From positions 502,589 through 542,966 of the forward strand of contig NZ_KE387027.1 of assembly GCF_000430045.1 (NCBI RefSeq): a stretch of DNA of 40,378 bases, read 5' to 3'. Shown piece after piece: positions 1 to 40,297 of the stretch; the stretch's first letter is position 1; every line of letters begins with the position of its first letter. The notes under the pieces were generated by a model. The model did no database searches. It was not told where the DNA came from and saw nothing but the letters and a program-made list of their open reading frames with translations. Source of the DNA: Calidithermus chliarophilus DSM 9957 (GTDB lineage: Bacteria; Deinococcota; Deinococci; Deinococcales; Thermaceae). Position numbers and translations under genes: made by a program.

Positions 1-53
1 AGATTTGGCTAGCCGTTGTTCTAGGACTCATATGGAGTTTCCCATTTTTCGTT
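1..53. repeat. Terminal direct repeat, left copy
   Basis: These 53 bases are identical to the last 53 bases of the window (40326-40378). At the right end the same bases are codons 10-27 of a membrane protein gene. A terminal repeat of this kind is typical of a contig closed on itself by an assembler, or of one ending in a repeated segment. The low GC of positions 1 to about 110 matches the right end of the window, not the DNA that follows. Confidence 0.95.
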
Positions 54-475
54 AACAAAAACGTTTCTAAGCCCTCGGTATCAACCCTCGAGGTTGCGAG
101 CGGGATAACCCAGTTCAAAAAGAAGGCCTCGAGGTCGCTGCGCACCCCGCCCGGGGCCTGGAGCGCGAGCACCTCGTCCTTGAGCGTCAGGAGCCCCTCG
201 GGGGAGACCGCGGGGCTCACGGAGGCCAGGGCTGCCCTGGCCTGGTGCACCGCCTTGTAAAGCTGGCTCAGCGCGGCCGGGGGCGAGAGCGCGGGCCACA
301 GCGCCTCCAGCGCCTCGTCGCGGCGCAGGCGGTAGCCCTCCCGCAGGGCCAGCAGCTTCAGCAGGCTCCGGGCCTTGCGGCGCTCGAAGGCCTCCTCGGC
401 CACCTCGAGGCCGCCCACCCGGACCGCGAAGCCCCCCAAGACGCGCAGCTCGACCGCCTCGAGAGGGGTGGACAT
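1..475 (-). CDS. SARP/BTAD-type transcriptional regulator, N-terminal part, tail abnormal
   Basis: The reading frame starts at ATG 475-473 after GGAGGT with 6 nt spacing and stays open to the window edge (158 codons). The N-terminus (ELRVLGGFAVRVGG, then ERRKARSLLKLLAL and LEALWP, then LSQLYKAVHQARAAL) is the winged-helix DNA-binding domain of the SARP/BTAD family of activators, which often carry long C-terminal sensor regions. Homology-like sequence stops near residue 120 (DLEAFF). Beyond that, at about positions 1-115, the DNA turns AT-richer and reads better on the plus strand as the continuation of the membrane gene at the right end. The gene is therefore cut by a junction, real or assembled. 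It is last in the minus-strand sulfur-gene series, 58 nt after the methyltransferase gene, and could regulate it. The family call is fairly sure; the last 40 codons are doubtful. Confidence 0.65.
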   Translation of the reverse strand, partial: MSTPLEAVELRVLGGFAVRVGGLEVAEEAFERRKARSLLKLLALREGYRLRRDEALEALWPALSPPAALSQLYKAVHQARAALASVSPAVSPEGLLTLKDEVLALQAPGGVRSDLEAFFLNWVIPLATSRVDTEGLETFLLTKNGKLHMSPRTTASQI

Positions 476-533
476 CGGCGTACCTCCGCCCTTTCAGGCT
501 ACACCTCGAGGCGCCGGGGGCGCAGGGGGAGGC

Positions 534-1301
534 CTAGCTTTTGACCGCCAGCAGCGATACCGACCTCACCCCGTAGGTGCGGCTGGCCCCCTGGGCGCTT
601 TTGGAGAGGAAGGCGTACTGCGGGTTCTCGCGCCAGGCCACGACCTTCAACCCCGCCTCCTCGACCGCGCGGCGGTACGCGTCCTGCTGCATGGCCCCGC
701 CGATGCAACTGGCCCACAGGCTGCTGTTGCAGGTGATGGAGGGGGGCATCTCGAGCTCGCTGACGATGTCGGAGATCGCCAGCCTCCCTCCCGGCCGGAG
801 CACGCGGGCGGCCTCGCTGAACACCCGCGCCTTGTCCGGCGCCAGGTTGATCACCCCGTTGCTGATCACCGCGTCGAAGGAGCCGTCGGCGAAGGGCAGC
901 TCCTCGATGTGGCCGGGGCAGAACTCCACCTGGGCGAAGCCGGCGCGCTCCTTGAGCGCGTGGGCCTTCTGCCGCTGGGCCTCGGTCATGTCGAGCCCCA
1001 CCGCCCGGCCGCGCGGCCCCACCCGCACGGCCGCGCCGAAGGTGTCGGTGCCCGAGCCGCTGCCCAGGTCCAGCACCGCCTCGCCGGGCTTTAGGGCGGC
1101 GAGGTCGAGGTGGTAGCCCACCCCGGCGAAGGACTCGAGCGCCTCCGGCGGGATCTGCTCGAGCAACTCCCCCGGGTAGCCCAGCTTCAGGGCCAGCCCC
1201 CGGCCCAGCTCGAAGTGGAACTCCCCTCGGGGCTCTTCGGCCACCTTCTGGTACACCGCCTGCACCTTGGCCCGCAATTCCTCACGGTCAACCTCGATCA
1301 T
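534..1301 (-). CDS. ArsM-like SAM-dependent methyltransferase
   Basis: A 255-residue class I methyltransferase. The SAM-binding loop is VLDLGSGSGTDT (residues 77-88), the acidic residue of strand 2 is D104, and SNGVINLAPDK (147-157) is the motif typical of arsenite methyltransferase relatives. The N-terminal YQKVAEEP and IPPEALESFAGVGYH stretches also fit the ArsM family. ArsM enzymes use several conserved cysteines to hold arsenite. Here the Cys expected just after the SAM loop is Thr87, C199 (ASCIGGA) matches one ArsM Cys, and no C-terminal partner is visible, so arsenite is an unlikely substrate. It follows the DsrE-like gene by 9 nt and probably shares its transcript, which points to a sulfur-linked role. 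The substrate is unknown. Confidence 0.8.
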   Translation of the reverse strand: MIEVDREELRAKVQAVYQKVAEEPRGEFHFELGRGLALKLGYPGELLEQIPPEALESFAGVGYHLDLAALKPGEAVLDLGSGSGTDTFGAAVRVGPRGRAVGLDMTEAQRQKAHALKERAGFAQVEFCPGHIEELPFADGSFDAVISNGVINLAPDKARVFSEAARVLRPGGRLAISDIVSELEMPPSITCNSSLWASCIGGAMQQDAYRRAVEEAGLKVVAWRENPQYAFLSKSAQGASRTYGVRSVSLLAVKS

Positions 1302-1310
1302 GGGCCCTCC

Positions 1311-1673
1311 TCAGAAATCCAGGGTCGAAACCCCGCCCTGGGCCAGGTACTCCACCACGTAGGCCGCGGTCACGATCTTGGCCCCCTCGATCAGGTCGGC
1401 CTCGGTGATGCCACGGGGCTTGGTGCAGGTCCCGCAGGCCCACACCTGCCCGCCGTTCTGCAGGAGGGAGTTCAAGGTGTCCCGCAGTGGCGGGAAGCCC
1501 GGCTTCTCGATGCCGTCGGCGTAGCCCTTAGTGGCCAGCCAGACCCCCTCGATGGTCAGCAGCACCACCGCCTCCTGCCCCGCCGAAGCGGCCACGTTAG
1601 CCACGATGAAAGGCAGCATGGCCCGCTCGGGGTCGTCCTTGCCGTGGGTACAGTGCGCCAGAATCTTCGCCAT
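1311..1673 (-). CDS. DsrE/DsrF-like sulfur-relay family protein
   Basis: A 120-residue protein of the DsrE/YchN-like fold, whose members carry persulfide on cysteine or bind small thiol compounds. The start is the ATG at 1673-1671, placed 7 nt after GGAGGT; a GTG three codons upstream overlaps that ribosome site and is less likely. Cysteines are in AHCTHGKDD near the N-terminus and in VWACGTCTKPRGI, where CGTC is a CxxC pair at the place of the usual active-site Cys. The ribosome site overlaps the stop codon of the upstream TusA-like gene, so the two are translationally linked. A persulfide relay with the TusA-like protein is the natural inference. Confidence 0.85.
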   Translation of the reverse strand: MAKILAHCTHGKDDPERAMLPFIVANVAASAGQEAVVLLTIEGVWLATKGYADGIEKPGFPPLRDTLNSLLQNGGQVWACGTCTKPRGITEADLIEGAKIVTAAYVVEYLAQGGVSTLDF

Positions 1674-1687
1674 AATCCACACCTCCT

Positions 1688-1945
1688 CTACTTCTTGCGG
1701 ATCAGGAACCTGATCAGGGGGCCTTCCTCGAGCGTGGCTACCAGGGGGTTACCGGAGAGCCGGCACCAGGAAGGCACGTCGAGCCTGGCGCTCTGGTCGT
1801 CGGTGCGGATCTCCAGGACCTGGCCGCTGGCGAGGTCATCCAGCCTCCGCTTGATCAGCGGGGTCAGCGTGGCGCAGATCGCGCCCTCGTAGCCGGCGGC
1901 TTCGGTGGCCTCGAGGACCGCGTCAGGCGTCGGAACGTTCGCCAT
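1688..1945 (-). CDS. TusA-like sulfur carrier with altered CPxP motif
   Basis: An 85-residue protein resembling TusA/SirA sulfur carriers. The C-terminal half (GQVLEIRTDD, DVPSWCRLSGN, IRFLIRKK) matches the family well. Classical TusA has a Cys-Pro-x-Pro active site; here the same place reads CATLTP, so C24 is kept but the first Pro is gone. A second Cys, C61, sits in the SWCR motif, as in many relatives. GGGGAGGT lies just before the ATG. It is first in the tusA-like/dsrE-like/arsM-like series. A role in accepting persulfide sulfur and passing it to the DsrE-like partner is inferred; biosynthetic tRNA thiolation is the less likely alternative. Confidence 0.75.
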   Translation of the reverse strand: MANVPTPDAVLEATEAAGYEGAICATLTPLIKRRLDDLASGQVLEIRTDDQSARLDVPSWCRLSGNPLVATLEEGPLIRFLIRKK

Positions 1946-1977
1946 GATTACCTCCCCGACAATTGACTGAGAGATGC

Positions 1978-2073
1978 AGTATACCCTTTCCGGCGCACAG
2001 CTCGCTAACCCTGACCGGAACCGGGCTGCACCCGTGTACCGCCGCGCAGCCCGGGCCCGTCAACCCGGTTCCT
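1978..2073 (-). promoter_or_regulatory. Upstream region of tusA-like gene with overlapping inverted repeats
   Basis: A TATACT -10-like box lies at 1983-1978, giving a leader of about 26 nt. No good -35 is seen. Just upstream is a perfect 9-bp inverted repeat, CCGGGCTGC (2021-2029) against GCAGCCCGG (2046-2054). An alternative pairing uses GGAACCGGG (2018-2026) with CCCGGTTCC (2065-2073). The two pairings exclude each other. It could be an operator or the end of the osmC transcript; there is no T-run. Confidence 0.35.
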
Positions 2074-2093
2074 GCCGTTCGCGCAAGTCCCAT

Positions 2094-2654
2094 TCAACCC
2101 TCGAGCACCACCTTCACCGGCACCGGGTTGCGGATGATGTCGAGCACCGGCGAGGTCTTCTGCACGTAGTCGCACAGCTCGACGACCTTCTCCCTGGGGG
2201 CGTCGGCCTTGACCCGGTAGCGCACCGTGAGGCCCTCGTAACCGGGGCGCACCTTGTCGGAGAGCCCCAGGAAGCCCTGCAGGTCGAGGTCGCCCTCGAG
2301 GTCGAACTCCAGCGCCTCCACCCTGATCCCCCGCGCGGCGGCGTTGTAGACGAAGCCCACCGCCAGGCAGGAGGCCAGGGCGTGCAGCACCGCCTCCACC
2401 GCGTTGGGGCCCTTGTTGGTCCCCAGCAGCACGGGGGGTTCGTCGCCCTCGAGGGTGAAGGGGGCGGCCCTCGAGGTGTCCTCCTGCCCCGCGCCGTAGA
2501 AGCCCTGGATGCGGGTCTTGGCGTTGCCCCCCGAGACCCAGTCGGTGTGCGCGCGGAAGCGGAAGCGGGCCAGGTTGGGGTCGGCCTGGATGGCCTGCAC
2601 GGTGGCGACGAGCCTGTCTACGTCCACGCCGTTGATCCGGTTCTGCGTGACCAT
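2094..2654 (-). CDS. OsmC family peroxiredoxin-like protein
   Basis: A 186-residue OsmC/Ohr-superfamily protein, thiol peroxidases that reduce organic hydroperoxides or act on reactive sulfur species. The two redox cysteines are present: C96 in HALASCLAVGF, on the central helix, and C161 in VELCDYVQKTSPV. The start ATG (2654-2652) follows AAGGAGG at good spacing. It lies 93 nt after the MFS gene on the same strand and probably belongs to the series driven from the ArsR-rhodanese promoter. The neighbours suggest protection from persulfide or hydroperoxide stress, but the sequence alone does not decide between OsmC-like substrates. Confidence 0.88.
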   Translation of the reverse strand: MVTQNRINGVDVDRLVATVQAIQADPNLARFRFRAHTDWVSGGNAKTRIQGFYGAGQEDTSRAAPFTLEGDEPPVLLGTNKGPNAVEAVLHALASCLAVGFVYNAAARGIRVEALEFDLEGDLDLQGFLGLSDKVRPGYEGLTVRYRVKADAPREKVVELCDYVQKTSPVLDIIRNPVPVKVVLEG

Positions 2655-2747
2655 GTGCTCCTCCTTCGGGGTGGGGTTCCACCCACCGGCCTCAGTCTGG
2701 AGCGGCCCCCCTTCCCAGGACCTTCCCGCGGTCATCCCGCAGGGGCC

Positions 2748-3980
2748 TCAGGGCGCGGCCCGCCGGCTCGCCACGATCAGCCCCGAGGCGAAGGTCAGCC
2801 CGGCGACCAGCCCGATGGCCCAGTCGAAGCCCAGCCAGTCGGCGACCCGGCCCGCCAGCAGGGCCCCCGCCGCGTAGCCGACGTCCCGCCAGAAGCGGTA
2901 CACGCCCAGCGCCCGCGCCCGCCACGCCGGCTCGCTCGCGTCGCCCACCACCGCGATCAGCGTCGGGTAGACCATCGCCGTGCCGGCCCCCAGCAGCACC
3001 ATCGCCGCCAGCCACCCCGCCAGGCCGTTCGTCAGGAGCGTGAGGGCGATGCCTGCTGCCTGCACGCCCATGCCCCATGCGATCAGGCCGTAGCGACTGA
3101 CCCGGTCGGAAAGCGGCCCCGTGAGCACCTGCAGCACGCTCCACACCAGCGGGTAGACGAGCTTGAGCAGCCCGATCTCCTCCAGCGGCAGCCCCTTGGC
3201 GGCGAAGAACAGCGGGAAGATGCCCCACGACAGGCCGTCGTTGAGGTTGTTGACCAGCCCGGCCTGGCACGCCGCGAAGAGGCGCGGGTCGCGCCAGGAG
3301 GTGCGCGCGAAGACCGCACGGAAGGGGAGGGCCGCCGGGCCCGGGGGGCGGCTTTCGTGCTCGAGCCGCACGTGGGCGCGGGTGTCCCGCACGAGGAAGG
3401 CCGACAGCCCCAGCCCGAGCACCGCGTAGGCCACGCCGGGGACGAAGGGGGCGGGGCGCAGGCCGTAGATGCCGGCGAGGTAGCCGGTGAGCCACGCCGT
3501 CACCCCCACCGCCAGGTATCCGGCGAACTCGTTGAGCCCCACCGCCAGCCCCCGCGCCTTCGGCCCCACCAGGTCGATCTTCATGACCACCGCCGCCGAC
3601 CAGGCGAGCCCCTGGTTGACCCCCAGCAGCACGTTGGCGAAGACGACCCAGCCCCAGTGCGGCGCGAACATCAGCACGAAGGGCACGGGCAGGCCGAAGA
3701 GCCAGCCCAGCACCAGCAGCGGCTTGCGGCCCAGCCGGTCGGCCAACACCCCGCTGGCGAGGTTGAGCAGCGCCTTGGTCAGGCCGAAGCTGACGATGAA
3801 GCTGGTGGCGGCGCTGCTCGAGGCCAGCCCGAACTCCTCGCTCGCCACCAGCGGCAGCACGGTGCGCTCGAGCCCGACCATGCCGCCGACCATCGCGTTG
3901 ACCAGCATCAGCAGCGCGAACTGCGCGGCGTTCTCGCGCAGCCCGAGCCGCGGGCCGGGGGGGACGGCGGGCCGCTCCAT
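2748..3980 (-). CDS. MFS transporter
   Basis: A 410-residue membrane protein of the major facilitator superfamily with about 12 hydrophobic segments. The loop between segments 2 and 3 reads GVLADRLGRKPLLVLG, the classical MFS signature, and a second copy-like loop GPLSDRVSRYGLIAWG starts the C-terminal half. The start codon overlaps the stop of the upstream metallo-beta-lactamase-fold gene by one base (TGATG), so the two are translationally coupled. The coupling suggests export of a product or substrate of the sulfur enzymes, for instance a sulfur oxyanion. That is inference only; the substrate cannot be read from the sequence. Confidence 0.85.
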   Translation of the reverse strand: MERPAVPPGPRLGLRENAAQFALLMLVNAMVGGMVGLERTVLPLVASEEFGLASSSAATSFIVSFGLTKALLNLASGVLADRLGRKPLLVLGWLFGLPVPFVLMFAPHWGWVVFANVLLGVNQGLAWSAAVVMKIDLVGPKARGLAVGLNEFAGYLAVGVTAWLTGYLAGIYGLRPAPFVPGVAYAVLGLGLSAFLVRDTRAHVRLEHESRPPGPAALPFRAVFARTSWRDPRLFAACQAGLVNNLNDGLSWGIFPLFFAAKGLPLEEIGLLKLVYPLVWSVLQVLTGPLSDRVSRYGLIAWGMGVQAAGIALTLLTNGLAGWLAAMVLLGAGTAMVYPTLIAVVGDASEPAWRARALGVYRFWRDVGYAAGALLAGRVADWLGFDWAIGLVAGLTFASGLIVASRRAAP

Positions 3981-4708
3981 CAGCCCTCGAGGTTATGGGC
4001 GCGAACCTGCTCGAAGCCTTCGGGGCGCGGGGGGATGTCCCGGAGCATCAACGCGACGAACTCGGCCTCGTCCTCCACGCGGAAGGCCCGGTTGAAGCGG
4101 CGCTCGAAGCCGATGGTGCTCCAGGCCTTGCCCGACAGGCCGCGCCCGCACACCGAGCCGAGGAAGGCGCCGGGCAACACCTCGAGGTGGTCCGGCAGGC
4201 CCTTCAGGCGCCGGGCGCTGCGGAAGAGGTCGCGGGCACCTTCCTCGGCGCTGCCGGCGAGCTCGGTGCGCCCGAGGTCGCCCACCATCAGGGTGTGCCC
4301 GGTGAGGACCATCCAGGGCTCGTCGCTGCGGGTGCGGTCCGTGACCAGCACGCACAGGTGTTCGGGGGTGTGGCCGGGGGTGTGCCAGAAGGTGAGCCCG
4401 ACGTTGCCCAGCTCGAGCCGGTCGCCGTCGCTGACCGGGTGGAAGTCGAACTTCGCGGCGACGCTCTCGTGCAGCACGTACCGCGCGCCGGCGGCTCGGG
4501 CGAGCTCGAGGGCGCTGGAGCGGTGGTCGGCGTGGACGTGGGTGTCGATGACGTAGCGGAGCTTCAGGCCCAGGCGCTCGGCGTCCTCGAGGTAGGGCGC
4601 GACGGGGCCCATCGGGTCGACCACCGCGCCGCTGGCCTTGCCGCCGCAGCCCAGCAGGTAGGACGCGCCGACGGCGGGCTCGGTGTGGAGGTACTGGCGC
4701 AGGATCAC
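3980..4708 (-). CDS. ETHE1-like metallo-beta-lactamase-fold protein with altered ligand residues
   Basis: A 242-residue protein of the MBL fold, closest in pattern to persulfide dioxygenases (ETHE1 group). The THVHADH motif is intact (H57, H59, D61, H62) and the next ligand is H113 in TPGHT. Two later positions differ: the Asp of the usual TGDTL motif is H138 (TGHTL), and the final PxH position is A181 (LPGAF) before GSVCGRGLSGK. In ETHE1 the iron is held by two His and the Asp that is His here, so the metal site must be different. The GTG start (4708) overlaps the upstream TGA as GTGA. Persulfide or thiol-linked chemistry is inferred from the neighbours. Confidence 0.8.
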   Translation of the reverse strand: MILRQYLHTEPAVGASYLLGCGGKASGAVVDPMGPVAPYLEDAERLGLKLRYVIDTHVHADHRSSALELARAAGARYVLHESVAAKFDFHPVSDGDRLELGNVGLTFWHTPGHTPEHLCVLVTDRTRSDEPWMVLTGHTLMVGDLGRTELAGSAEEGARDLFRSARRLKGLPDHLEVLPGAFLGSVCGRGLSGKAWSTIGFERRFNRAFRVEDEAEFVALMLRDIPPRPEGFEQVRAHNLEG

Positions 4709-5376
4709 GCGCCCACCCCCTGCCGCACCGGGTAACCGGCGGCCCGCCAATCGGGCAGGCCCAGCTCCAGGCGGCGGGCGTTGAAGCCCCGCGCACGCAG
4801 CAATTCGACGGCCTCATCGGCGAAGGTGCAGTACGGCCCCCGGCAGTACGCGATGACCTCCACCCCCCGGGGCAGGGACGGCAGCAGCGCCTCGAGCTCC
4901 GCGACGGGTGCGGGGATCGCGCCGGGGATGTGCCCGGCCTCGAACTCCCTCAGCGGGCGCACGTCGAGCAGCACGGCGTCGCCGTGCTCGAGCCTGCGGG
5001 CGAGCTCCTCGAGCCCGACGGGCTCGCCCTCGCGCTCGAGGGTGCTCTCCACGAGGCGCTCGACTTCGGCGAGGCGCTGCCGGGCGAGGTCGCGCAGGGC
5101 CTGCCAGAGCGGGAACGCCCCCGGCGTCAGGGAGTAGTAGGCGAACACGCCCTCGCGCCGCTGCTCCACCAGCCCCGCCGCGTGCAGCACCTGCAGGTGC
5201 TGGCTGGCGTTGGCGACGGAGAGGTCGGCCTCGCGGGCGAGGCTCTCGACGCTGCGCTCGCCCTGGGCGAGCAGCTCGATGAGCTCGAGGCGGTGGTTGT
5301 TGGCCAGGGCTTTGCCCAGGCGGGCGAACTGGTCGAAGAGCTGCTGCTTGAACCGGCGCTTCCGGGTCGGGTCCAT
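4705..5376 (-). CDS. ArsR-family regulator fused to a rhodanese domain
   Basis: A 223-residue fusion. Residues 1-110 form an ArsR-type winged helix (LANNHRLELIELLAQGERSV, then DLSVANASQHLQVLHAAGLV), and residues 118-220 a rhodanese domain with DVR, GHIPGAI and the active loop CRGPYC (C178, C183). The start ATG (5376-5374) is chosen because the ArsR fold begins there and an AT-rich palindrome lies immediately upstream. The helix-turn-helix part has no cysteine, unlike the sulfide sensors BigR and SqrR, so the rhodanese Cys is the likely sensor of persulfide. It heads the series with the MBL protein, transporter and OsmC. It probably represses its own operon. Confidence 0.9.
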   Translation of the reverse strand: MDPTRKRRFKQQLFDQFARLGKALANNHRLELIELLAQGERSVESLAREADLSVANASQHLQVLHAAGLVEQRREGVFAYYSLTPGAFPLWQALRDLARQRLAEVERLVESTLEREGEPVGLEELARRLEHGDAVLLDVRPLREFEAGHIPGAIPAPVAELEALLPSLPRGVEVIAYCRGPYCTFADEAVELLRARGFNARRLELGLPDWRAAGYPVRQGVGA

Positions 5377-5406
5377 ATTCAATAAATTTATTGAGTGCTT
5401 GAATAT
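5375..5406 (-). promoter_or_regulatory. Probable operator of the ArsR-rhodanese regulator
   Basis: A perfect 16-bp palindrome, TCAATAAATTTATTGA, lies at 5379-5394. It is framed by an outer 8-bp inverted repeat, ATATTCAA (5375-5382) against TTGAATAT (5399-5406). AT-rich palindromes of this form are typical ArsR-family operators, and the ATATTC/GAATAT halves resemble BigR-type sites. It touches the start codon of the regulator, so binding should block its transcription. Confidence 0.75.
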
Positions 5407-5568
5407 TGTCAAGCGCCGCCGGACCAGATCCCCCCGAGGGTCCCGGACCTGCCCAGCGCCCATGCCCCCGGTCGCGGGCTGCGGGCTCCGGCTCAGCCGG
5501 GGCTCAGACCCCAAGAAGCCTGAGGTCAGGCACGCTTCCCATGATGGCGAAGTGGGAGGGAAGCGACC
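5407..5568. promoter_or_regulatory. Divergent intergenic region between arsR-rhodanese and the 105-residue hypothetical
   Basis: GC-rich spacer between divergent genes. It carries an interrupted palindrome CCTGAGGTCAGG (5519-5530) and the ribosome site GGGAGGG before the plus-strand GTG start. No convincing -35/-10 pair was found for the plus-strand gene. Confidence 0.3.
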
Positions 5569-5886
5569 GTGGCACACGACTATAGAGCTCCCCAGGCCGT
5601 GCGCGACGCGGCCCGCAAGGGCCTCGAGCTGCGCAGGAGGTACGGGCGCGGCGGCAGCGAGGCGGGGCTCGAGGTGGCCCGCCGGCTGACGATGGGCCGC
5701 CCCATGAGCCTCAACGAGGTGCGGCTCCTCGCCCAGTTCTTCTCCCGCTATGCCAAGGACCCCCCCGAGCCGCCCGGGGCGGGGCAGGAGCCCAGCGACG
5801 CCTACATCGGCTGGCTGCTGTGGGGCGGCGACGCGGGGCGCGAGTGGGCCGAGGAGGTTTTGCGCGGGCTGGGCACCGCCCCATGA
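5569..5886 (+). CDS. Small conserved hypothetical protein
   Basis: A 105-residue soluble protein starting with GTG after GGGAGGG. The pattern is an N-terminal AVRDAARKGLELRRRYGRGG, a middle LTMGRPMSLNEVRLLAQFFSRYAKD, and a C-terminal YIGWLLWGGDAGREWAEEV. I recall this arrangement from small proteins and protein ends in phage and prophage head-morphogenesis regions, but no phage genes surround it here. The function is unknown. It stands alone on the plus strand between the sulfur cassette and the gluconate-dehydrogenase-type operon. The rich RxxR/RRR content of the first half could bind nucleic acid, but that is a guess. Confidence 0.7.
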   Translation: MAHDYRAPQAVRDAARKGLELRRRYGRGGSEAGLEVARRLTMGRPMSLNEVRLLAQFFSRYAKDPPEPPGAGQEPSDAYIGWLLWGGDAGREWAEEVLRGLGTAP

Positions 5887-6110
5887 AGGCCACGGAGCAC
5901 GGCTTTCCCTTTCCCGGGGCCTCCCGCACCGCCGTTTCAGCCTCGGCTTAGGCCCGGGTCAGTCGGGCATCAGCTTGGGCCGGTAGCTTTCCGGTGTCGA
6001 AAGGAGCGTGAGACGTCCTGGCCCAGCGGTTCGGCCCCATCGAGTCCAGGAGCTACCCCTATCCGGCGCCGCCATTCTGGACGAATTATCCCCCCGAATG
6101 AGGGAGCACT
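5887..6110 (+). other. Intergenic stretch before the GMC dehydrogenase operon
   Basis: Over 200 bases with no supported gene. It ends with the ribosome site GAGGGAG 4 nt before the ATG at 6111. A 22-codon frame overlaps the previous stop codon but has no coding support. No clear promoter boxes were found. Confidence 0.4.
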
Positions 6111-6908
6111 ATGGCAGTGAAATTCGACCGGCGCAGTTTCTTGAAGGTGGTCGGTGGGGCGTCGCTGGGCGCTCTGGTCGGCGGAGGGGGTAAGGCCCAG
6201 GGCTATCCCCCTCCGCCCATGACCCATCAACACCCCCAGGCCCAGCAGGTCCTGCAGCGGGCCCTGGCGGCGCACCCGCAGGGCTACACCTTCTTCAACT
6301 CGGCCGAGGCGGCCTTCATGGAGGCGGTGGTGGCGCGGCTCATCCCCTCCGACGCGCTGGGGCCGGGGGGCCTCGAGGCCGGCTGCGCCTACTTCATCGA
6401 CCAGCAGCTCAACTCGATGTACGGCCACGGCGGGCGCTGGTACATGCAGGGCCCTTGGGAGCCGGGCCAGCCCGAGCAGGGCTACCAGCTCCCGCTCAAG
6501 CCGCGCGAGATCTACCGGCTGGGCATCGCCGCGACCAACCGCTACTGCGCCCGCACCTACTCGCGCACCTTCGACCGGCTCAGCGCCCAGCAGAAGGACA
6601 CCGTGCTCAAGGGCCTCGAGGAGGGCAGTGTCGAGCTGGGCGACCTGCCCGCGCGCACCTTCTTCAACATGATGCTCTCCGACACCATGAAGGGCTACTT
6701 CGCCGACCCCGCCTACGGCGGCAACCGCGGCAAGGTGGGCTGGAGGCTGGTGGGCTTCCCCGGCGTGGCCGCGGCCTACGTGGGCTTCATCGAGCAGTGG
6801 GGCAAGCCCTATGAGGTCGACCCCGTGAGCATCCCCGACCTGCTGGGCGGGCAGGCCCAGGTGGACGAGCACGGGCACCCCATCCACCGGCCGGTGGCCC
6901 GGCGGTAG
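6111..6908 (+). CDS. Gluconate 2-dehydrogenase subunit 3 family protein (small subunit)
   Basis: A 265-residue small subunit of a GMC-type membrane dehydrogenase. The N-terminus has a twin-arginine signal (DRRSFLKVVGG, R7-R8) followed by a hydrophobic Gly/Ala stretch. This matches the known chaperone-like small subunits that carry the flavoprotein through the Tat system by hitch-hiking. The body contains AAFMEAVVARLIPSD and LEAGCAYFIDQQL, the opening motifs of the family. It is followed 9 nt later by the GMC flavoprotein and then by cytochrome c, the usual three-part layout. The oxidised substrate (sugar, sugar acid or alcohol) cannot be told. Confidence 0.88.
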   Translation: MAVKFDRRSFLKVVGGASLGALVGGGGKAQGYPPPPMTHQHPQAQQVLQRALAAHPQGYTFFNSAEAAFMEAVVARLIPSDALGPGGLEAGCAYFIDQQLNSMYGHGGRWYMQGPWEPGQPEQGYQLPLKPREIYRLGIAATNRYCARTYSRTFDRLSAQQKDTVLKGLEEGSVELGDLPARTFFNMMLSDTMKGYFADPAYGGNRGKVGWRLVGFPGVAAAYVGFIEQWGKPYEVDPVSIPDLLGGQAQVDEHGHPIHRPVARR

Positions 6909-6917
6909 GAGGCTGCG

Positions 6918-8684
6918 ATGGCGACCGAACTCAAGCCGGCGGACGTGGTGCTGGTGGGCGTGGGCTGGACCGGGGGCATCCTGGCGAAGGAGCTGGCCCA
7001 GGCCGGGCTGAAGGTGGTGGGCCTCGAGCGGGGCGAACCCCGCGACACCAACCCCGACTTCCAGCCCCCGCGCATCCACGACGAGCTGCGCTACGCGGTG
7101 TACCACGAGCTGATGCAGGACCTCTCGCGCGAGACCATCTCCTTCCGCAACAACCTCCAGCAGCGGGCGCTGCCCATGCGCCAGCAGGGCTCCTTCCTGC
7201 TCGGGGAGGGGGTCGGGGGCTCGGGGGTGCACTGGAACGGCGTGACCTGGCGCTTCCTGCCCTGGGACTTCCGCGCCCTCTCGGCCACCCTCGAGCGCTA
7301 CGGCCGCGGCATCCTCCCCGAGGACGCCACCGTGCAGGACTGGGGCGTGACCTACGAGGAGCTCGAGCCCTACTACGACCGCTTCGAGTACACCTGCGGC
7401 ATCGGGGGCAAGGCGGGCAACCTCAAGGGGCAGGTCCAGCCCGGGGGCAACCCCTTCGAGGGCCCGCGCAGCCGCGAGTACCCCAACCCGCCCATGAAGG
7501 TGACCCGCGCGATGGAGCTCTTCCGCCGCGCGACCGCGGGGCTGGGCTTCCACCCCTTCGTCCAGCCCTCCGCCAACATGACCCGGCCCTACACCAACCC
7601 CGACGGGGTGCAGCTCAACCCCTGCGTGTACTGCGGCTTCTGCGAGCGCTTCGGCTGCGAGGTCGCGGCCAAGTCGAGCCCGCAGGTCACGGTGCTGCCG
7701 GTGGCGGCCAAGACCGGCAACTTCGAGCTGCGCACCCACTGCAACGTGGTGCGCGTCAACCTCAGCCCCGACAAGAAGCGCGCGGTGAGCGTGACCTACG
7801 TGGACCTGCGCACGGGGCTGGAGTACGTCCAGCCCGCCGAGCTCATCTGCCTGACCTCCTACGTCTTCAACAACGTCAAGCTGATGCTGCTCTCGGGCAT
7901 CGGGCAGCCCTACGACCCGGTGAAGAACGAGGGCGTGGTGGGGCGCAACTACGCCTACCAGGGCTTCACCAACGCCGGGGTGTTCTTCGACGACAAGATC
8001 ATGAACTCCTTCATGGGGGCCGGGGCGCTGGGCATGTCCATCGACGACTTCAACGGCGACAACTTCGACCACTCGAGCCTGGGCTTCATCGGCGGGGCCA
8101 ACATCGCCGTCTACCAGACCGGCGCCCGGCCCATCCTCTCGCGCCCCGTGCCGCCCGGCACCCCGCGCTGGGGGCCCCAGTGGAAGCAGGCCACCGCCCG
8201 CTACTACAACCGTTTCTTCAACATCGGCGCCCAGGGCGGCGTCCTCAGCTACCGCGGCCACTACCTCGACCTCGACCCTACCTACAAGGACGCCTACGGC
8301 CTCCCCCTGCTGCGCCTGACCTTCGACTGGGGGCCCAACGAGATCAAGGCCTCGCAGTACCTGGCGGGGGTGCTCCGGCGCATCGTGGAGGCCCTCAAGC
8401 CCAGCAAGTCCAACGTCAGCCCGTTGCCCGAGCGCTACGGCATCGTCACCTACCAGTCCACCCACAACACCGGCGGGGCGGTCATGGGCGCCGACCCCAA
8501 GACCAGCGCCGTCAACCGCTACCTGCAGAGCTGGGACGTGCCCAACGTCTTCGTAGTCGGGGCCAGCGCTTTCCCGCAGAACGCGGGCTACAACCCCACC
8601 GGCACCGTCGGGGCCCTGGCCTACTGGGCCGCCGACGCCATCAAGAACCGCTACCTCAAGAACCCGGGACCGCTCGTGAGTTAG
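6918..8684 (+). CDS. GMC oxidoreductase, gluconate-2-dehydrogenase-like flavoprotein subunit
   Basis: A 588-residue FAD enzyme of the glucose-methanol-choline family. The dinucleotide fold begins at once: VVLVGVGWTGG (residues 11-21) and the FAD ribose acidic residue in VVGLERG. The C-terminal active-site region reads QSTHNTGGAVMG and later NAGYNPTGTVGALAYWAADA. Residues 236-247 hold four cysteines (C236, C239, C242, C247), matching the extra cysteine cluster found in FAD-dependent glucose, gluconate and fructose dehydrogenases, where it binds a 3Fe-4S centre. There is no export signal; the small subunit upstream supplies the Tat signal. Electrons would pass by the cluster to the cytochrome c encoded next and then to the respiratory chain. 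Confidence 0.88.
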   Translation: MATELKPADVVLVGVGWTGGILAKELAQAGLKVVGLERGEPRDTNPDFQPPRIHDELRYAVYHELMQDLSRETISFRNNLQQRALPMRQQGSFLLGEGVGGSGVHWNGVTWRFLPWDFRALSATLERYGRGILPEDATVQDWGVTYEELEPYYDRFEYTCGIGGKAGNLKGQVQPGGNPFEGPRSREYPNPPMKVTRAMELFRRATAGLGFHPFVQPSANMTRPYTNPDGVQLNPCVYCGFCERFGCEVAAKSSPQVTVLPVAAKTGNFELRTHCNVVRVNLSPDKKRAVSVTYVDLRTGLEYVQPAELICLTSYVFNNVKLMLLSGIGQPYDPVKNEGVVGRNYAYQGFTNAGVFFDDKIMNSFMGAGALGMSIDDFNGDNFDHSSLGFIGGANIAVYQTGARPILSRPVPPGTPRWGPQWKQATARYYNRFFNIGAQGGVLSYRGHYLDLDPTYKDAYGLPLLRLTFDWGPNEIKASQYLAGVLRRIVEALKPSKSNVSPLPERYGIVTYQSTHNTGGAVMGADPKTSAVNRYLQSWDVPNVFVVGASAFPQNAGYNPTGTVGALAYWAADAIKNRYLKNPGPLVS

Positions 8685-8694
8685 GAGGTGAAAC

Positions 8695-9147
8695 GTGCGA
8701 CTCTTACCGCTGCTTGTATTCATGGTGATCATCGGTGTAGTGGCTCAGAACAGCGCCCCCACCGGGGCTACGGTGTACCAGCAGTGCCAGGGCTGCCACC
8801 AGCCCACCGGGCAGGGCATCCCCGGCGCCTTCCCGCCCCTGGCCGGCAACGTCCAGACCATCCTCACCGCCAAGGGCGGCCGCGCCTACCTGATCCACGT
8901 CGTGCTGTACGGCGTTCAGGGCCCGATCAAGGTCAAGGGCCAGACCTACAACGGGGCCATGCCGGGCTTCGCCCAGCTCTCCGACAACCAGGCCGCGGCC
9001 GTGCTCAACCACGTCAGCACGAGCTGGGGCAACAAGCTGCCCAAGGGCCAGAAGGCCTTCACCGCCGCCGAGGTCAAGGCCCAGCGCGCCAAGAAGCTGA
9101 CGCCCGCCCAGGTCGCCGCCGAGCGCCAGAAGCTGGGCCTCAAGTAG
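8695..9147 (+). CDS. Exported monoheme cytochrome c
   Basis: A 150-residue class I cytochrome c. It starts with GTG after TAGGAGGTG, which itself overlaps the end of the flavoprotein gene. Residues 1-17 are a hydrophobic signal or anchor. The heme site is CQGCH (C31, C34, H35), with M89 in GAMPGF as probable sixth ligand. After residue 110 the chain is Lys/Ala/Gln-rich (KAQRAKKLTPAQVAAERQK) and probably helical, perhaps a docking tail. It is the electron acceptor of the dehydrogenase encoded by the two genes before it. The usual gluconate dehydrogenase partner is a triheme cytochrome; this one has a single heme site. Confidence 0.9.
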   Translation: MRLLPLLVFMVIIGVVAQNSAPTGATVYQQCQGCHQPTGQGIPGAFPPLAGNVQTILTAKGGRAYLIHVVLYGVQGPIKVKGQTYNGAMPGFAQLSDNQAAAVLNHVSTSWGNKLPKGQKAFTAAEVKAQRAKKLTPAQVAAERQKLGLK

Positions 9148-33295: not shown

Positions 33296-34429
33296 TTACT
33301 CAGGGTAACGGCCGCCGGCTTTGGAAGTTACGAATTTTGACCATTCCCTCTCCACCAGGCTCCTGAACTGCTGCCGGAACCGTTCCGCCCCGAACCGTTC
33401 GACCGTTTGGCGTATGGCACTGGGGGTCCAGGTCTGCTGCTCGAAGCGCTCGACGGCCTCGATGATCGCTCGAGGCGTCTGTTCGGAGAAGAAAACGCCG
33501 CCGACCCCCTCCTGTACCGTCTCGAGCGCTCCGCCTTTGCCGTAGGCGATCACGGGCGTGCCGCAGGCCTGGGCCTCCACCGGGATGATCCCGAAGTCCT
33601 CCTCCGCCGCGAACACGAACGCTTTCGCCCGCTGCATGTGCTCCTTGAGGGAGGAGAAGGGCTGGTAGCCCATCATTTGGACGTTGGGGGCCGCCTTCGC
33701 CTTGACCTTCTCGAAGTCGGGGCCATCCCCGATGACTACCAGCTTGCGCCCGGGCATCTGGCTGAAGGCCTCGACGATGAGGTCCATCCGCTTGTAAGGC
33801 ACCATCCTCGAGGCCGCCAGGTAAAAGTCCTCCTTGTGCTCGTGCAGCGTGAAAGATTCCACGTCCACAGGGGGGTAGATCACTTCAGCCTCGCGGCGGT
33901 ACGCCTTGCGGATGCGCCGGGCGATGTAGTGGGAATTGGCGACGAACACGTCAACCCCGGCCGCCGTGCGTTGATCCCATAGCCGCATGTAGTGTAGGAG
34001 AGCGCGAGCCAGTGCGCCTTTTACCCCCCGCTCCAACCCGGCTTCGCGCAGGTACTGCGGCTGCAGGTCCCAGGCGTAGCGGATAGGGGTGTGAACGTAG
34101 CTCAGGTGCAACTGGTCCGGCCCGGTGAGCACCCCTTTAGCCACCGCGTGGGAGCTCGAGATCACCACGTCGTAGGCGGAGAGGTCGAACTGCTCAATAG
34201 CCAGCGGCATTAGCGGTAGGTACGTCCGGTACTTGCGTGTAGCCCAAGGTAGACGCTGTAGAAAGGACGTGTAAACCGGATGTTTTGCCACCTCACGAGC
34301 AAGAAAAGGCTCGGGGTCATGTACAAGCGTATAGAGGGGGGCCTCGGGGTAGAGCTGCATGATGGCTTCGAGGACTTTCTCAGACCCGCCTGGGGTCACG
34401 AGCCAATCATGCACGAGCGCTAGACGCAT
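33296..34429 (-). CDS. GT4-family glycosyltransferase
   Basis: A 377-residue GT-B glycosyltransferase. The N-terminal acceptor domain has LVHDWLVTPGGSEKVLEAI; the C-terminal donor domain has ASRMVPYKRMDLIVEAF, VVIGDGPDFEKVKAKA and the EX7E region EEDFGIIPVEAQACGTPVIAYGKGGALETV. These are typical of retaining GT4 enzymes using nucleotide sugars. It is probably cytoplasmic and adds a sugar to the lipid-linked acceptor begun by the next gene product. Donor and linkage cannot be told. Confidence 0.9.
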   Translation of the reverse strand: MRLALVHDWLVTPGGSEKVLEAIMQLYPEAPLYTLVHDPEPFLAREVAKHPVYTSFLQRLPWATRKYRTYLPLMPLAIEQFDLSAYDVVISSSHAVAKGVLTGPDQLHLSYVHTPIRYAWDLQPQYLREAGLERGVKGALARALLHYMRLWDQRTAAGVDVFVANSHYIARRIRKAYRREAEVIYPPVDVESFTLHEHKEDFYLAASRMVPYKRMDLIVEAFSQMPGRKLVVIGDGPDFEKVKAKAAPNVQMMGYQPFSSLKEHMQRAKAFVFAAEEDFGIIPVEAQACGTPVIAYGKGGALETVQEGVGGVFFSEQTPRAIIEAVERFEQQTWTPSAIRQTVERFGAERFRQQFRSLVEREWSKFVTSKAGGRYPE

Positions 34430-34438
34430 AGCGGCATA

Positions 34439-35458
34439 CTAGTGGTGCAACAACGCCTTGTACAAGCTAAGGTGGGCCTCAGCAATCGCATCCCAGGAGT
34501 AAATCTGAGCCCAGGCTCTTCCCCTGGCGCGGAGTTGCTCCATACGGTCGGGCGTAGCGAGCAACTCCTCTAGGTGCTTCAAGGCCTCGGCCGGCTTATC
34601 TGCATACACCACCGCCTCGCCGAGTGAAGCGGGAGTTTGGGGGCCACGGGTAGTTACCACTACGGCGCCATTCCCGAGTGCGGCCAACAGTGAGCCACGC
34701 CGCTCAGAGGCCCCGTCCGGAAAGGGGAGATAAGCAAACCCGCAACGGGCGAGCCGGGCAGCAACTTGATCTGAAGTCAGACTCGATTCCCAGGCTAGAT
34801 TGTCGAGTCCCTGAGATTTTTCTTTTAGCGACTGAAGATAAGCGTGGCGGTCGGCCTGGAGTGCGCCAATGATGACAAATCGGAAGGGGTGTGGGTTGGA
34901 AGCAGCCATTCGAGCCAGGTCAAGAAAGGCCTCGAGGCCCTTGTTTGGGCGAATAAGGCCGAAGTAAGCGACTTCAAACACGTTGCGGCCGGGCGTTGGC
35001 TCAGTAAATGGAATGTTGCTTCCTATAGGGACGACGCTAGATCGCGACCACACCTGCGGGAGCCACTTGGTCAGCGCGCCTCGTTCAAAGGGATTTGTGA
35101 ACACTACGTGGTGGGCACCGCTTGCCAGTCCCATCACCGCAATTCGCCGGAGTGGGTGAGCCTGGCTGAATTCGTGTACGGTCACGGCAACCGGAACAGT
35201 CCTCGCAGCTCTCCAGATCAGGGCAAGAGGGCCGAGGCCGCTCCCATACGCCACGGTCGGGTACTGAATATGTAGGATATCCGGCCTTACGTCGTTTATC
35301 CGACGCCATAGCTCGCCCAAACTCCATAAGCCCCAATGCTCGCCCTGAATAACAGAAGTCAGTATGCCCTTTCTAGCCAGTGCCTCTACTAGGTGGGCGG
35401 TATAGTCGGCCACACCGCAAGCAGCGGGCGGGACGGAACTAACAAAGGCTACGTGCAT
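34439..35458 (-). CDS. Second GT4-type glycosyltransferase
   Basis: A 339-residue GT-B protein starting MHVAFVSSVPPAACGVADYT. The donor domain shows VAYFGLIRPNKGLEAFLDLA, FVIIGALQADRHAYLQSL and FAYLPFPDGASERRGSLLAALGNGAVVVTTRG. The EX7E motif is weak: SERRGSLLAALGNG stands where it would be expected, as in some GT4 relatives. Start and stop abut neighbours closely: the ATG directly follows the GT2 stop (TAA then ATG). From here to the pilins GC is visibly lower than in the first 31 kb. Confidence 0.88.
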   Translation of the reverse strand: MHVAFVSSVPPAACGVADYTAHLVEALARKGILTSVIQGEHWGLWSLGELWRRINDVRPDILHIQYPTVAYGSGLGPLALIWRAARTVPVAVTVHEFSQAHPLRRIAVMGLASGAHHVVFTNPFERGALTKWLPQVWSRSSVVPIGSNIPFTEPTPGRNVFEVAYFGLIRPNKGLEAFLDLARMAASNPHPFRFVIIGALQADRHAYLQSLKEKSQGLDNLAWESSLTSDQVAARLARCGFAYLPFPDGASERRGSLLAALGNGAVVVTTRGPQTPASLGEAVVYADKPAEALKHLEELLATPDRMEQLRARGRAWAQIYSWDAIAEAHLSLYKALLHH

Positions 35459-36307
35459 TTATCCCCTTGATAAGCCACCCTGCAGAGTAGCCAACGCTCG
35501 CTCCCAATCCCTCTGCAGTACCCGCTTTATAAATCGTCCCCCTACCCCGAGAACGACTGGGAGGAGAGGCAAAGGCGCATGCCGCGTGAAAAAGCGTCGT
35601 GCCGACCTGTTAAAGTACCGGTCAAGCGTTGGGCTTTTTTTGCCCATGCTTGCGGACTCCTTGTGTAGAACCTTGGAGTTCGTCGCCACCGCTAATTTCC
35701 AGCCTGCCTTGCGCAAACGAAAGCTGAAGTCAGTGTCCTCCCAATACATAAAGTACCCATCATCAAGAAGGCCTACCTTCTCGAATGCTATCCGGCGCAC
35801 CAGTAAACTCGCGGCCACCAGGTAGTCCATTCGTGATGACTCCACATTGGTGTAGTGGCGGGAATACCCTATCCACAAGGATACCTTTCCCCCGCCGTAC
35901 GCCTGTATCCGCTCTGGCTGGTCCATGTAATACAGCACTGACCCCACCGCCCCAATCGCCCCGTTGCTCTCTGCCACCTCGACCAGCGCAGAGAGCGCTC
36001 CTTTATCCACCACCGTATCGTTATTGAGCAACCAGACGTAATCTGCTCCGTGCTCCACTGCGGAGCGAATCCCTACGTTGTTGCCCCCGGCGAAACCCAA
36101 GTTTGCGCCCGTTGACACAACAGTTACGTCCGGTGCGGCTCTGCGTATTTCATGCACTGATCCGTCCGTCGAGCCATTATCTACAACAAGAATGCGGTAG
36201 TTGGGGTAATCGAGCGCTTGGAGAGAAGAGATGCAGGCCACGGTGTCCTGCCAGCCGTTCCAATTCAAGATGACGATATGAACTGATGGGTTGAACACTG
36301 ATGTCAC
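35459..36307 (-). CDS. GT2-family glycosyltransferase
   Basis: A 282-residue GT-A enzyme of the rhamnosyltransferase-like GT2 group. The nucleotide fold begins VHIVILNWNGWQDTVACISSL, followed by VVDNGSTDGSVHEI, the metal-binding region YVWLLNNDTVVDKGAL (DxD replaced by NND, common in the group), and the acceptor motif GYFMYWEDTDFSFRLRKAGW with the catalytic ED. A basic, hydrophobic C-terminus may touch the membrane. Its stop codon is immediately before the next ATG, indicating an operon. Confidence 0.9.
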   Translation of the reverse strand: MTSVFNPSVHIVILNWNGWQDTVACISSLQALDYPNYRILVVDNGSTDGSVHEIRRAAPDVTVVSTGANLGFAGGNNVGIRSAVEHGADYVWLLNNDTVVDKGALSALVEVAESNGAIGAVGSVLYYMDQPERIQAYGGGKVSLWIGYSRHYTNVESSRMDYLVAASLLVRRIAFEKVGLLDDGYFMYWEDTDFSFRLRKAGWKLAVATNSKVLHKESASMGKKSPTLDRYFNRSARRFFTRHAPLPLLPVVLGVGGRFIKRVLQRDWERALATLQGGLSRG

Positions 36308-36447
36308 TATAAGCCCAGCAGCGCTCGACCGTGGTCACAGTCCCACCTCCACACTCGAGCCGCCGAGTGCATACAGATCTGCTCAGAGAGTAAGGGCAAG
36401 CGCTACTTCAAGATGGTGCTCCCAGAACACGGACTAACGGTGCCCAG
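36308..36447 (-). other. Short gap between methyltransferase and GT2 genes
   Basis: 140 bases with no supported gene. On the plus strand a fragment SKGKRYFKMVLPEHGL reads without stop and may be a gene remnant, but this is weak. Confidence 0.25.
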
Positions 36448-37518
36448 TCACTTTTGTTTTCCGGCGATCAACACCAACTCCTCGCCAAGATCGCCAGTTC
36501 GTAAAAGACTCTGCTCCAGCAACTGAAAGACCAGACCTTGCAGCCTGGAACCGGCGTTGGCTCCCTTCGCTCGAAGTAATTCGCCTATCGGTGACCCGCC
36601 AGGAAGCGCGCTATTCTGGCGTATCAGCTTGCTGGTTACGAAGCGCCACCATGCCGAGTGGGCAACTGTACGTATCTCGATGGGGCACAGCCCACTCCTG
36701 CGAACACACTCCCCCAAACTGTATTGAGTGAAGAGGTAAAGATGCCGTGGTGGATCCCAATCAAGCCAAGCCTGGCCGAAGTATCGACTTCCCAAGCTTC
36801 GGCTATTAGGCGTTGCGATGACTACCTTCCCCCCCTCGCGTAGGAGTCTGCGACAAGCCTGCAGAACGCTGATTGGGTCAGGCAGATGCTCAATTACGTG
36901 GTTCAGGGTTACCACATCGAAGCTCCCCTCCGCCCAGCCCGCCTCCTCCAAAGTTCCCTGATGTACCTCAAGGCCCCGTCGCTGAGCTAATTGTGCTGCC
37001 ACAGGGTCGGGCTCAATTCCCGCTACCTGCCACCCTAGGTCGCGCATGCGCGCCATGAAATCACCACTTCCGCATCCCACATCGAGCAAGCGTCCCCCTT
37101 TTTGTAAGGGGAGCCACATGACAGAGGATCCGGCAAAATCGTATAGAAGCCGTACTCGCGAAAGAATACGGCCTAAAAGTGCATCTTTGCCTTTCTTATT
37201 AACTAGAGAGCTATATCCAAAACTTTCCGCCAGGATACCGTTCTTAATTCGCTGGAGTAGGGATTGTTTGTTTGTAGCCCTCTCCGATCCTACGTGGGTA
37301 TAGTAGTTTGCATAGAGTTTCCCGATATCTTCCGGTACGGGGCGAGGATCGAGCCAGGCCAGTTGGCAATGGGAGCAGTAAGCGATATTCCAGAGCCCTG
37401 AAGCCGCGAATATCCGGTCACGTAAGCCTCGGTACAGGGAACTTCCCTGACGGCCACACTGATAGCAGTTTGGGGCTTCTACAACACGTATACCCTCGTT
37501 ATCGTAATGGTCCTTCAC
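36448..37518 (-). CDS. SAM methyltransferase with N-terminal zinc-ribbon-like motif
   Basis: A 356-residue class I methyltransferase of the type common in surface-polysaccharide loci. Residues 18-51 have two CxxC pairs (C18-C21, C48-C51) able to hold zinc. The SAM loop is LLDVGCGSGDF (about 142-152), followed by VAGIEPDP and FDVVTLNHVIEHLPDP. The C-terminal half (GQAWLDWDPPRHLYLFTQYSL) is typical of enzymes methylating sugars or lipid-linked glycans. The GTG start overlaps the Wzx stop codon as GTGA. The likely job is to methylate a sugar or cap the chain; the exact target is unknown. Confidence 0.88.
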   Translation of the reverse strand: MKDHYDNEGIRVVEAPNCYQCGRQGSSLYRGLRDRIFAASGLWNIAYCSHCQLAWLDPRPVPEDIGKLYANYYTHVGSERATNKQSLLQRIKNGILAESFGYSSLVNKKGKDALLGRILSRVRLLYDFAGSSVMWLPLQKGGRLLDVGCGSGDFMARMRDLGWQVAGIEPDPVAAQLAQRRGLEVHQGTLEEAGWAEGSFDVVTLNHVIEHLPDPISVLQACRRLLREGGKVVIATPNSRSLGSRYFGQAWLDWDPPRHLYLFTQYSLGECVRRSGLCPIEIRTVAHSAWWRFVTSKLIRQNSALPGGSPIGELLRAKGANAGSRLQGLVFQLLEQSLLRTGDLGEELVLIAGKQK

Positions 37519-39035: not shown

Positions 39036-39448
39036 CCGCTCCTTTATAGGCCATGCAACTTGGTAGCTCAAGCAGCTAAGCCGGGCTTATCCCCTACAGA
39101 GCCTCGGCCGAAGGCTTCACACCTCAGCCGGTAGATACCCCTTAAGGGCCTCTCGGCAAGCGTCCAACCCCGAAAGCTTAATGATATTTAGGTAACGCCC
39201 AATTGTGTCTATGCCGTATTAAACGAGTTAAATGAGGACTGTGAGACATAGCGCTAGCATGGTGTGATCTTATAACTTGTTCATTTGCCCTTGCTTGCCT
39301 CTACACCCCTTGCTAGCATCACGCTTGGATTGAGGCACGACCTCAAGACCAACCGTCGGCAAATCGGCAATAGGCCCTCTAGCTGCACTACTGGAAGCCC
39401 CGCGCCAATACCCATACATCAGCTTGGCCGGGAGAAGGAAGGAAGAAC
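39036..39448. promoter_or_regulatory. Divergent intergenic region between wzx and pilin genes
   Basis: A comparatively AT-rich 413-bp space with no supported gene. It holds the flippase promoter region at the left and the pilin promoter at 39291-39319. The word GCTAGCAT occurs twice (39253-39260 and 39312-39319), the second covering the pilin -10. The long leader of about 125 nt before the first pilin has no recognised structure. Confidence 0.5.
39291..39319 (+). promoter_or_regulatory. Promoter of the pilin genes
   Basis: -35 TTGCTT (39291-39296), 17-bp spacer, -10 TAGCAT (39314-39319). The first pilin ATG is 129 nt downstream and has its own GGAAGGA ribosome site. Confidence 0.55.
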
Positions 39449-39802
39449 ATGCGCAACGCTAAAGGCTTCACCCTGATCGAGCTCCTGATCGTCATCGCGA
39501 TCATCGCCATCCTGGCGGCCGTGCTCATCCCCAACGTGCTCAACGCCCGCAAGCGCGCCAACGACCAGGCCGCCGGCGCCTACGCCCGCCAGGTCGCCAC
39601 CTGGCTCGCCGCGGCCGACACCGCCGGCACGCCGATCAGCACCATTACTAGCTGTACTGACGGAGTCCTGCAGAGCGAGGGTGCCCCGGCCACCTTCCCC
39701 AAGGCCGTCAGCAACTGCGCCATCAGCTACAACGCGAGCACTGGTCGGAGCACCGTCACGGTCACCTCGGTCAACAACGTTACCGTAACCGCGGTGTACT
39801 GA
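39449..39802 (+). CDS. Type IV pilin, first copy
   Basis: A 117-residue prepilin. It has a 6-residue leader MRNAKG, cleavage before F7, then FTLIELLIVIAIIAILAAVL with the invariant Glu at mature position 5, followed by an amphipathic helix (ARKRANDQAAGAYARQVATW). Two cysteines, C69 and C90, can form the C-terminal disulfide loop. The mature protein of 111 residues is short for a major pilin but normal for Thermaceae pilins. GGAAGGA precedes the ATG. A hairpin at 39823-39844 follows, so most transcripts may end here. Confidence 0.93.
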   Translation: MRNAKGFTLIELLIVIAIIAILAAVLIPNVLNARKRANDQAAGAYARQVATWLAAADTAGTPISTITSCTDGVLQSEGAPATFPKAVSNCAISYNASTGRSTVTVTSVNNVTVTAVY

Positions 39803-39822
39803 GGCACCCTTAAGCTGACGCA

Positions 39823-39852
39823 GGGCCGGGGTCATTCCCGGCCCTTGCTCCC
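39823..39852 (+). terminator. Hairpin between the two pilin genes
   Basis: GGGCCGGG (39823-39830) pairs with CCCGGCCC (39837-39844) around a 6-nt loop, followed by TTGCTCC. It could end or weaken transcription into the second pilin gene. Confidence 0.65.
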
Positions 39853-39866
39853 AGAAGGGGGCCTGG

Positions 39867-40235: not shown

Positions 40236-40297
40236 GGTATCGAACCTTTTCGGGCGACTCCAGCTAAAATGGGGTCGCCTAAGGTTTCTGGAGAAAG

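Follow-up and report, generated by a model that had tools for sequence, protein, structure and literature searches.

We analyzed a 40,378-nucleotide stretch of the Calidithermus chliarophilus DSM 9957 genome (contig NZ_KE387027.1, positions 502,589 to 542,966; hereafter the window) and found that positions 534–5376 are packed with seven minus-strand genes, which we believe with fair confidence to form an inducible cassette against sulfane-sulfur (persulfide or polysulfide) stress. This interpretation draws on the family assignments of the encoded proteins, on recurrent gene neighbourhoods, on a conserved predicted operator, and on the persulfide-dioxygenase-like fold of a metallo-beta-lactamase (MBL) protein in which two residues of the iron site have been exchanged as a pair, a swap that was probably reached twice in evolution. 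As recognized from reading frames, Pfam and NCBIfam, the genes encode, from upstream to downstream, an ArsR-rhodanese fusion (4705–5376; Pfam HTH_5 and Rhodanese), a single-domain ETHE1-like MBL protein (3980–4708, with a GTG start that overlaps the ArsR stop), a major facilitator superfamily (MFS) transporter (2748–3980; PF07690, overlapping the MBL gene), an OsmC-family protein (2094–2654; PF02566, 66.3 bits against a cut-off of 27.5), a TusA-like carrier (1688–1945; PF01206), a DsrE-like carrier (1311–1673; PF02635), and an ArsM-like S-adenosylmethionine methyltransferase (534–1301; below the cut-off of NCBIfam PRK11873). The ArsR, MBL and MFS genes are translationally coupled, with a 93-bp gap before OsmC and a 148-bp gap before the TusA-DsrE-methyltransferase group, an order and spacing that suggest two predicted transcription units. 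An earlier reading made from the sequence alone (the sequence-only reading) had placed eight genes in this interval; seven of them stand, and the eighth, a SARP-type regulator, lies outside it, starting at position 475.

By sequence and by fold, the MBL protein is a member of the persulfide dioxygenase (PDO) branch. Its structural model (predicted local distance difference test, pLDDT, 84.8) matches 3tp9 with a Z score of 33.1, CstB (3r2u) with 31.8, PRF (5ve4) with 29.1 and human ETHE1 (4chl) with 28.8, and we assign it to this branch because scores of 28–33 to PDO structures compare with 22 for glyoxalase II. It shares with ETHE1, PDO types I–III, CstB and PRF the MBL fold, the THxHADH motif, the second His ligand and the GR motif, but differs from them in carrying His for the Asp ligand and Ala for the His that hydrogen-bonds it. 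Persulfide dioxygenases are 2-His-1-Asp iron enzymes, and cysteine-type thiol dioxygenases use three histidines. Of the two His and one Asp that bind iron in PDOs (PMC4383860, PMC6060420), the cassette protein retains both His (H57 and H113) and has H138 (codon 4295–4297) in place of the Asp, while the second-shell His, which corresponds to H171 of the Acidithiobacillus caldus enzyme (AcPDO), has become A181 (codon 4166–4168).

Changed ligands in this protein had already been noted in the sequence-only reading, and they proved to be real and conserved. Among 70 aligned homologues, a set that includes near relatives, the Asp-ligand and second-shell positions hold Asp/His in 49 proteins, His/Ala in 19 proteins from several phyla, and Gly/His in two, with no His/His or Asp/Ala combination seen among the 70; in these natural proteins, Asp was never replaced by His without loss of the partner His. 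Presence of the pair in 18 other sequences rules out a sequencing or assembly error. The two Gly/His proteins, both from the actinomycete locus L175 (3496–4176 and 9782–10459), combine Gly at the Asp-ligand site with a retained second-shell His and represent a third state.

The His/Ala proteins fall into two separated clades, namely a 14-member clade that includes the cassette protein (support 100/99) and a five-member gammaproteobacterial clade (99/95) that is nested among Asp/His proteins. A sign test on independent pairs has just two pairs to draw on and cannot reach significance. The best tree uniting all 19 proteins was rejected (approximately unbiased, AU, test, p = 0.023), a result that is supportive rather than clean as the His/Ala group was named after the first tree had been seen. 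A single origin of the swap is disfavoured by this test, and one gain followed by later paired reversals is less parsimonious than two origins. Columns 137 and 180 (counted without the start residue) are the sole well-conserved columns in which the two His/Ala clades agree with each other but depart from the Asp/His consensus, and residues T56, H57, H59, D61, H113 and R147 are retained in both clades.

The simplest reading of this pattern is that the new His would act as a third iron ligand in place of Asp, and that the partner His must then go. Experiments on AcPDO count against persulfide oxidation by such a protein: the D130H substitution alone leaves 0.5–2% of the activity and little iron (PMC6060420), and the altered site might therefore be poorly active or perform other chemistry. 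The H171A variant, counterpart of the A181 change, is also inactive (PMC6060420). It is accordingly possible, if on the doubtful side, that the altered MBL protein has no dioxygenase function: the swap would have abolished iron chemistry, and the protein would be a hydrolase that uses a different metal or would serve in binding or regulation. Such an outcome is harder to square, however, with the six residues kept in both altered clades, and a replacement that is His in both clades and always comes paired with the second change is unlike random loss. We put forward, tentatively and as something short of probable, a natural three-His dioxygenase with an MBL fold that acts on persulfide (or another sulfur compound), evolved twice through the coupled swap of Asp and its partner, and serving a mobile rhodanese-gated cassette in which DsrE would feed a sulfur methyltransferase. 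AcPDO engineered to three His is nearly dead (PMC6060420), and nature apparently arrived at this replacement on two occasions, in both cases with the partner His removed; the natural swap offers a direct and cheap test of first- and second-coordination-shell constraints on sulfur oxygenation.

The gene neighbourhood points to sulfur as well. Relatives in which the cassette genes lie scattered without co-occurrence were sought in the genomes surveyed and not found, and the reactive-sulfur neighbourhood proposed from the sequence held up across phyla, with its pieces co-occurring far beyond chance. The ArsR-rhodanese/MBL/MFS module is found, often on plasmids and also on chromosomes, in Alpha-, Beta- and Gammaproteobacteria, Acidithiobacillia, Bacillota and Deinococcota, with plasmid-borne trios in Methylocystis, Acidiphilium, Acidithiobacillus, Paracoccus, Burkholderia, Bradyrhizobium, Azotobacter, Janthinobacterium, Hydrogenophaga, Cytobacillus and Deinococcus. 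On the Hydrogenophaga plasmid (L198), the module is flanked by an arsenic-resistance gene on one side and by the selenoneine gene senB on the other. All 13 MBL matches from a sample of 369 gammaproteobacterial genomes adjoin both an MFS and an ArsR match, and in 49 other genomes the MBL matches adjoin MFS in 10/10 cases and ArsR-rhodanese in 8/10. Within a survey of 111 Deinococcota genomes, ArsR-rhodanese is present in nine; an MFS gene lies beside it or a few genes off in five loci besides the window, several loci also have a DsrE gene in the vicinity, and some an FCSD/SQR-like flavoprotein.

Turning to the downstream genes, a pattern scan for the methyltransferase returned 472 relatives, from which 80 loci were kept. 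Of the 80, 22 loci from at least five phyla have a same-strand DsrE gene no more than 1.5 kb away, and eight have an ArsR-rhodanese gene at up to that distance; by comparison, the cassette DsrE type matches in just 13 of the 111 whole Deinococcota genomes. OsmC adjoins the methyltransferase in haloarchaea, Trueperaceae and Spirochaetes, and SARP genes recur in the combinations SARP-OsmC-methyltransferase (Spirochaetes contig L125), SARP-methyltransferase-DsrE (L119) and SARP-DUF4242-TusA-DsrE (Nocardioides). Among complete parallels the closest is found on an Acidobacteria contig (L109), which has MFS, MBL, methyltransferase, TusA and DsrE and a LysR gene in the place of ArsR, while a Myxococcota-type locus (L183) and the actinomycete locus L175 hold MFS, MBL, ArsR-rhodanese, DsrE and methyltransferase together. 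This recurrent co-occurrence rules out a chance juxtaposition of the cassette genes. The suggestion of a distinct pathway is better recast as a variant of known persulfide-handling operons; the combined sets exist in other phyla, and a literature search of incomplete coverage turned up no description of them or of the ArsR-rhodanese/MBL/MFS module.

A further alternative, which we consider unlikely, is that two separate operons, one comprising ArsR-MBL-MFS and the other SARP/OsmC/TusA/DsrE/methyltransferase, are merely adjacent here: each unit is found without the other, and the 93- and 148-bp gaps set OsmC and TusA off from the genes upstream. Yet both units, or large parts of them, stand together in L109, L183, L175, the betaproteobacterial loci L135 and L138, and Billgrantia L118. 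In Allomeiothermus silvanus, of the same family (G023; plasmid pMESIL01), an ArsR-rhodanese gene 83% identical to that of the cassette precedes a fusion in which the start of an MFS gene runs into the C-terminal region of SARP. This fusion is the trace of a deletion in which all that lay between the two was lost, and the order running from MFS to SARP therefore existed in the sister genus, which again argues against mere adjacency. Some observations do count against a sulfane-sulfur cassette of the proposed composition. The full set occurs in only one of the 111 Deinococcota genomes, and a second genome of the same genus lacks ArsR-rhodanese, DsrE, TusA and methyltransferase, its MBL match being of the canonical rhodanese-fused type. 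In addition, some plasmid copies of the module adjoin mercury, arsenic or heavy-metal efflux genes, and triggers other than sulfur are therefore conceivable.

The predicted regulator has an ArsR domain without cysteine, and its sole two cysteines lie in the rhodanese loop CRGPYC, which is kept in nearly all relatives. It scores 42.8 bits against the NCBIfam BigR model, under the cut-off of 155, and its nearest solved structure is an uncharacterised ArsR domain (2kko/3gw2), which we take to be a mycobacterial ArsR. The repressors SqrR, BigR, SoxR and sHdrR sense sulfane sulfur via two ArsR-domain cysteines (PMC12423496). Like them, the cassette protein has an ArsR fold and is likely a sulfane-sulfur repressor of persulfide-handling genes, but it lacks the two ArsR-domain cysteines and carries instead a C-terminal rhodanese domain with the CRGPYC loop. 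The BigR/SqrR-type sensor that had been suggested for the cassette is thus ruled out by the absence of the defining cysteines; the regulator stands outside the SqrR/BigR group, though it may serve the same end.

Upstream of this gene lies a putative operator, the perfect palindrome TCAATAAATTTATTGA (TCAA-N8-TTGA; 5379–5394, minus strand), which is the single exact match to the pattern within the window. Of 33 partly non-independent regions that precede ArsR-rhodanese genes in Deinococcota, Proteobacteria, Actinomycetota, Bacillota and other groups, 10 contain the exact pattern and 22 contain it with no more than one mismatch, compared with 0.1 and 2.2 expected from dinucleotide shuffles, an effect that spans phyla. 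The palindrome overlaps the −10 element of a predicted promoter (TTGACA-16-TAAATT; 5385–5412, minus strand), which precedes the ATG at 5376 and is the sole sigma-70-like site in positions 1–6200, where shuffles give 0.1. Because the ATG follows so closely behind the −10 element, the ArsR-rhodanese transcript is likely leaderless. With its conserved predicted operator, the ArsR-rhodanese protein makes an assayable regulator.

For the methyltransferase, ArsM (PRK11873) is the closest family, but the enzyme reaches only 213.9 bits against a curated cut-off of 263 and has DsrE, OsmC and TusA, not ars genes, as its partners. The three ArsM cysteines are arsenic-binding. One of them, the C174-equivalent, is retained as C199; the C72-equivalent is Val, and there is no conserved third cysteine. 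The sequence-only description of a methyltransferase lacking the ArsM cysteines thus holds for two of the three and fails for C199, which is kept in all 80 relatives. V61 and G149 are likewise invariant in 80/80; for V61 and C199 this is in part a product of the search, as both were contained in the scan patterns, although one pattern sufficed and all 80 relatives carry both, while G149 and H29 were in no scan pattern. The sub-threshold score and the incomplete cysteine set speak against an identity as an arsenite methyltransferase. The ArsM-like METHYLTRANSFERASE keeps steady company with DsrE, OsmC and TusA, which suggests instead a sulfur or sulfur-bound acceptor, and one hypothesis is methylation of sulfide or persulfide with an outcome comparable to that of the Mdd enzymes. 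The parallel to the H2S and methanethiol methyltransferases MddA, MddH and MddM (PMC12904073) would be one of function, provided that the cassette enzyme acts on sulfide or a thiol, and the gene neighbourhood differs. The cassette also connects sulfur carriers with a widespread family of ArsM-like methyltransferases, for which a single scan gave 472 relatives.

Both of these carriers match their Pfam domains, with 44.9 bits against a cut-off of 28.6 for TusA and 58.4 against 22.7 for DsrE. The TusA-like protein has C-x-x-L-x-P (CATLTP) in place of the CPxP motif, a feature common to its counterparts in L109 (CGSLEP) and L151 (CVNLTP), and the CxxC of the DsrE-like protein is present in 21/21 aligned relatives. 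As in the DsrE-TusA relays of the Dsr, sHdr and Tus systems, the two proteins are encoded side by side, but the cassette TusA departs from those systems in lacking CPxP, and the cassette contains no DsrFH, DsrC or Hdr-like genes.

The main rival with respect to the trigger and the methyl acceptor is detoxification of metals or metalloids (As, Sb, Se, Te or Hg, thiolated), in which CRGPYC would sense the element, the methyltransferase methylate it, the MFS protein export it and the carriers supply thiol. Although arsenite methyltransferases are the closest relatives of the cassette methyltransferase and plasmid copies of the module lie near merA with RND efflux genes and near an arsenic-resistance protein, we regard this alternative as improbable, given that the methyltransferase family as a whole lacks two of the three As-binding cysteines, that the score falls under the curated ArsM cut-off, and that the DsrE, TusA, rhodanese, persulfide-dioxygenase-like and SQR-like partners indicate sulfur. 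Orthologues of the methyltransferase were also observed in Halomonas-type and rhizobial genomes (L110–L122, L130–L161 and others) together with a sigma-70-type sigma factor, a small zinc-finger anti-sigma-like protein, a cupin and a second, membrane-extended ArsM-like methyltransferase, a set that constitutes another operon.

From the gene content, the operator, the recurrence across phyla and the ligand swap, all of which are read directly from sequence, we infer how a sulfane-sulfur cassette of this kind could work. Sulfane sulfur would load the two rhodanese-loop cysteines of the ArsR-rhodanese protein, and the loaded repressor would leave the operator palindrome. The MBL protein would oxidise low-molecular-weight persulfide to sulfite at a three-His iron site, with the MFS protein exporting an anionic product, while DsrE and TusA would take up sulfane sulfur and pass it on, the methyltransferase would methylate sulfur or a sulfur-bound acceptor, and OsmC may reduce by-product (per)oxides.

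Next to the cassette, the SARP-type regulator gene (118–475, minus strand; orthologues in L125, L119 and L193) is represented by its first 119 codons, its genuine part ending at position 118. Complete orthologues are 1,128–1,229 aa long, so with a span of about 1,130–1,230 aa in these proteins the SARP found here is a truncated piece, the N-terminus alone. Beyond it lies a genomic repeat (1–117) that cuts the gene and adjoins an assembly gap (a run of N). Five other full or partial copies exist in the genome. Both window ends (1–117 and 40326–40378) lie in one repeated element, with further copies at G000:C7:543041, 544353 and 545263 and at C3:525701, and therefore the assembly breaks at the repeat, which is probably a mobile element. 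The SARP C-terminal TPR part is found at L005 8164–8688 (G000:C7 ~498163–498687), where it is flanked by two runs of N and interrupts an unrelated FAD-dependent dehydrogenase gene, apparently as a small contig misplaced in the scaffold. On the A. silvanus plasmid pMESIL01 (L205/L066), the SARP TPR region is 98% identical to that of the window genome, compared with 83% for ArsR-rhodanese, a hint that the two regions were recently transferred separately or recombined.

Elsewhere in the window, a divergent plus-strand set (6111–9147) lies upstream of the cassette and encodes a gluconate 2-dehydrogenase subunit 3-like protein, a GMC oxidoreductase and a cytochrome-c-like protein. Over positions 34000–40378 the G+C content falls from about 70% to about 55%, which suggests acquired DNA.

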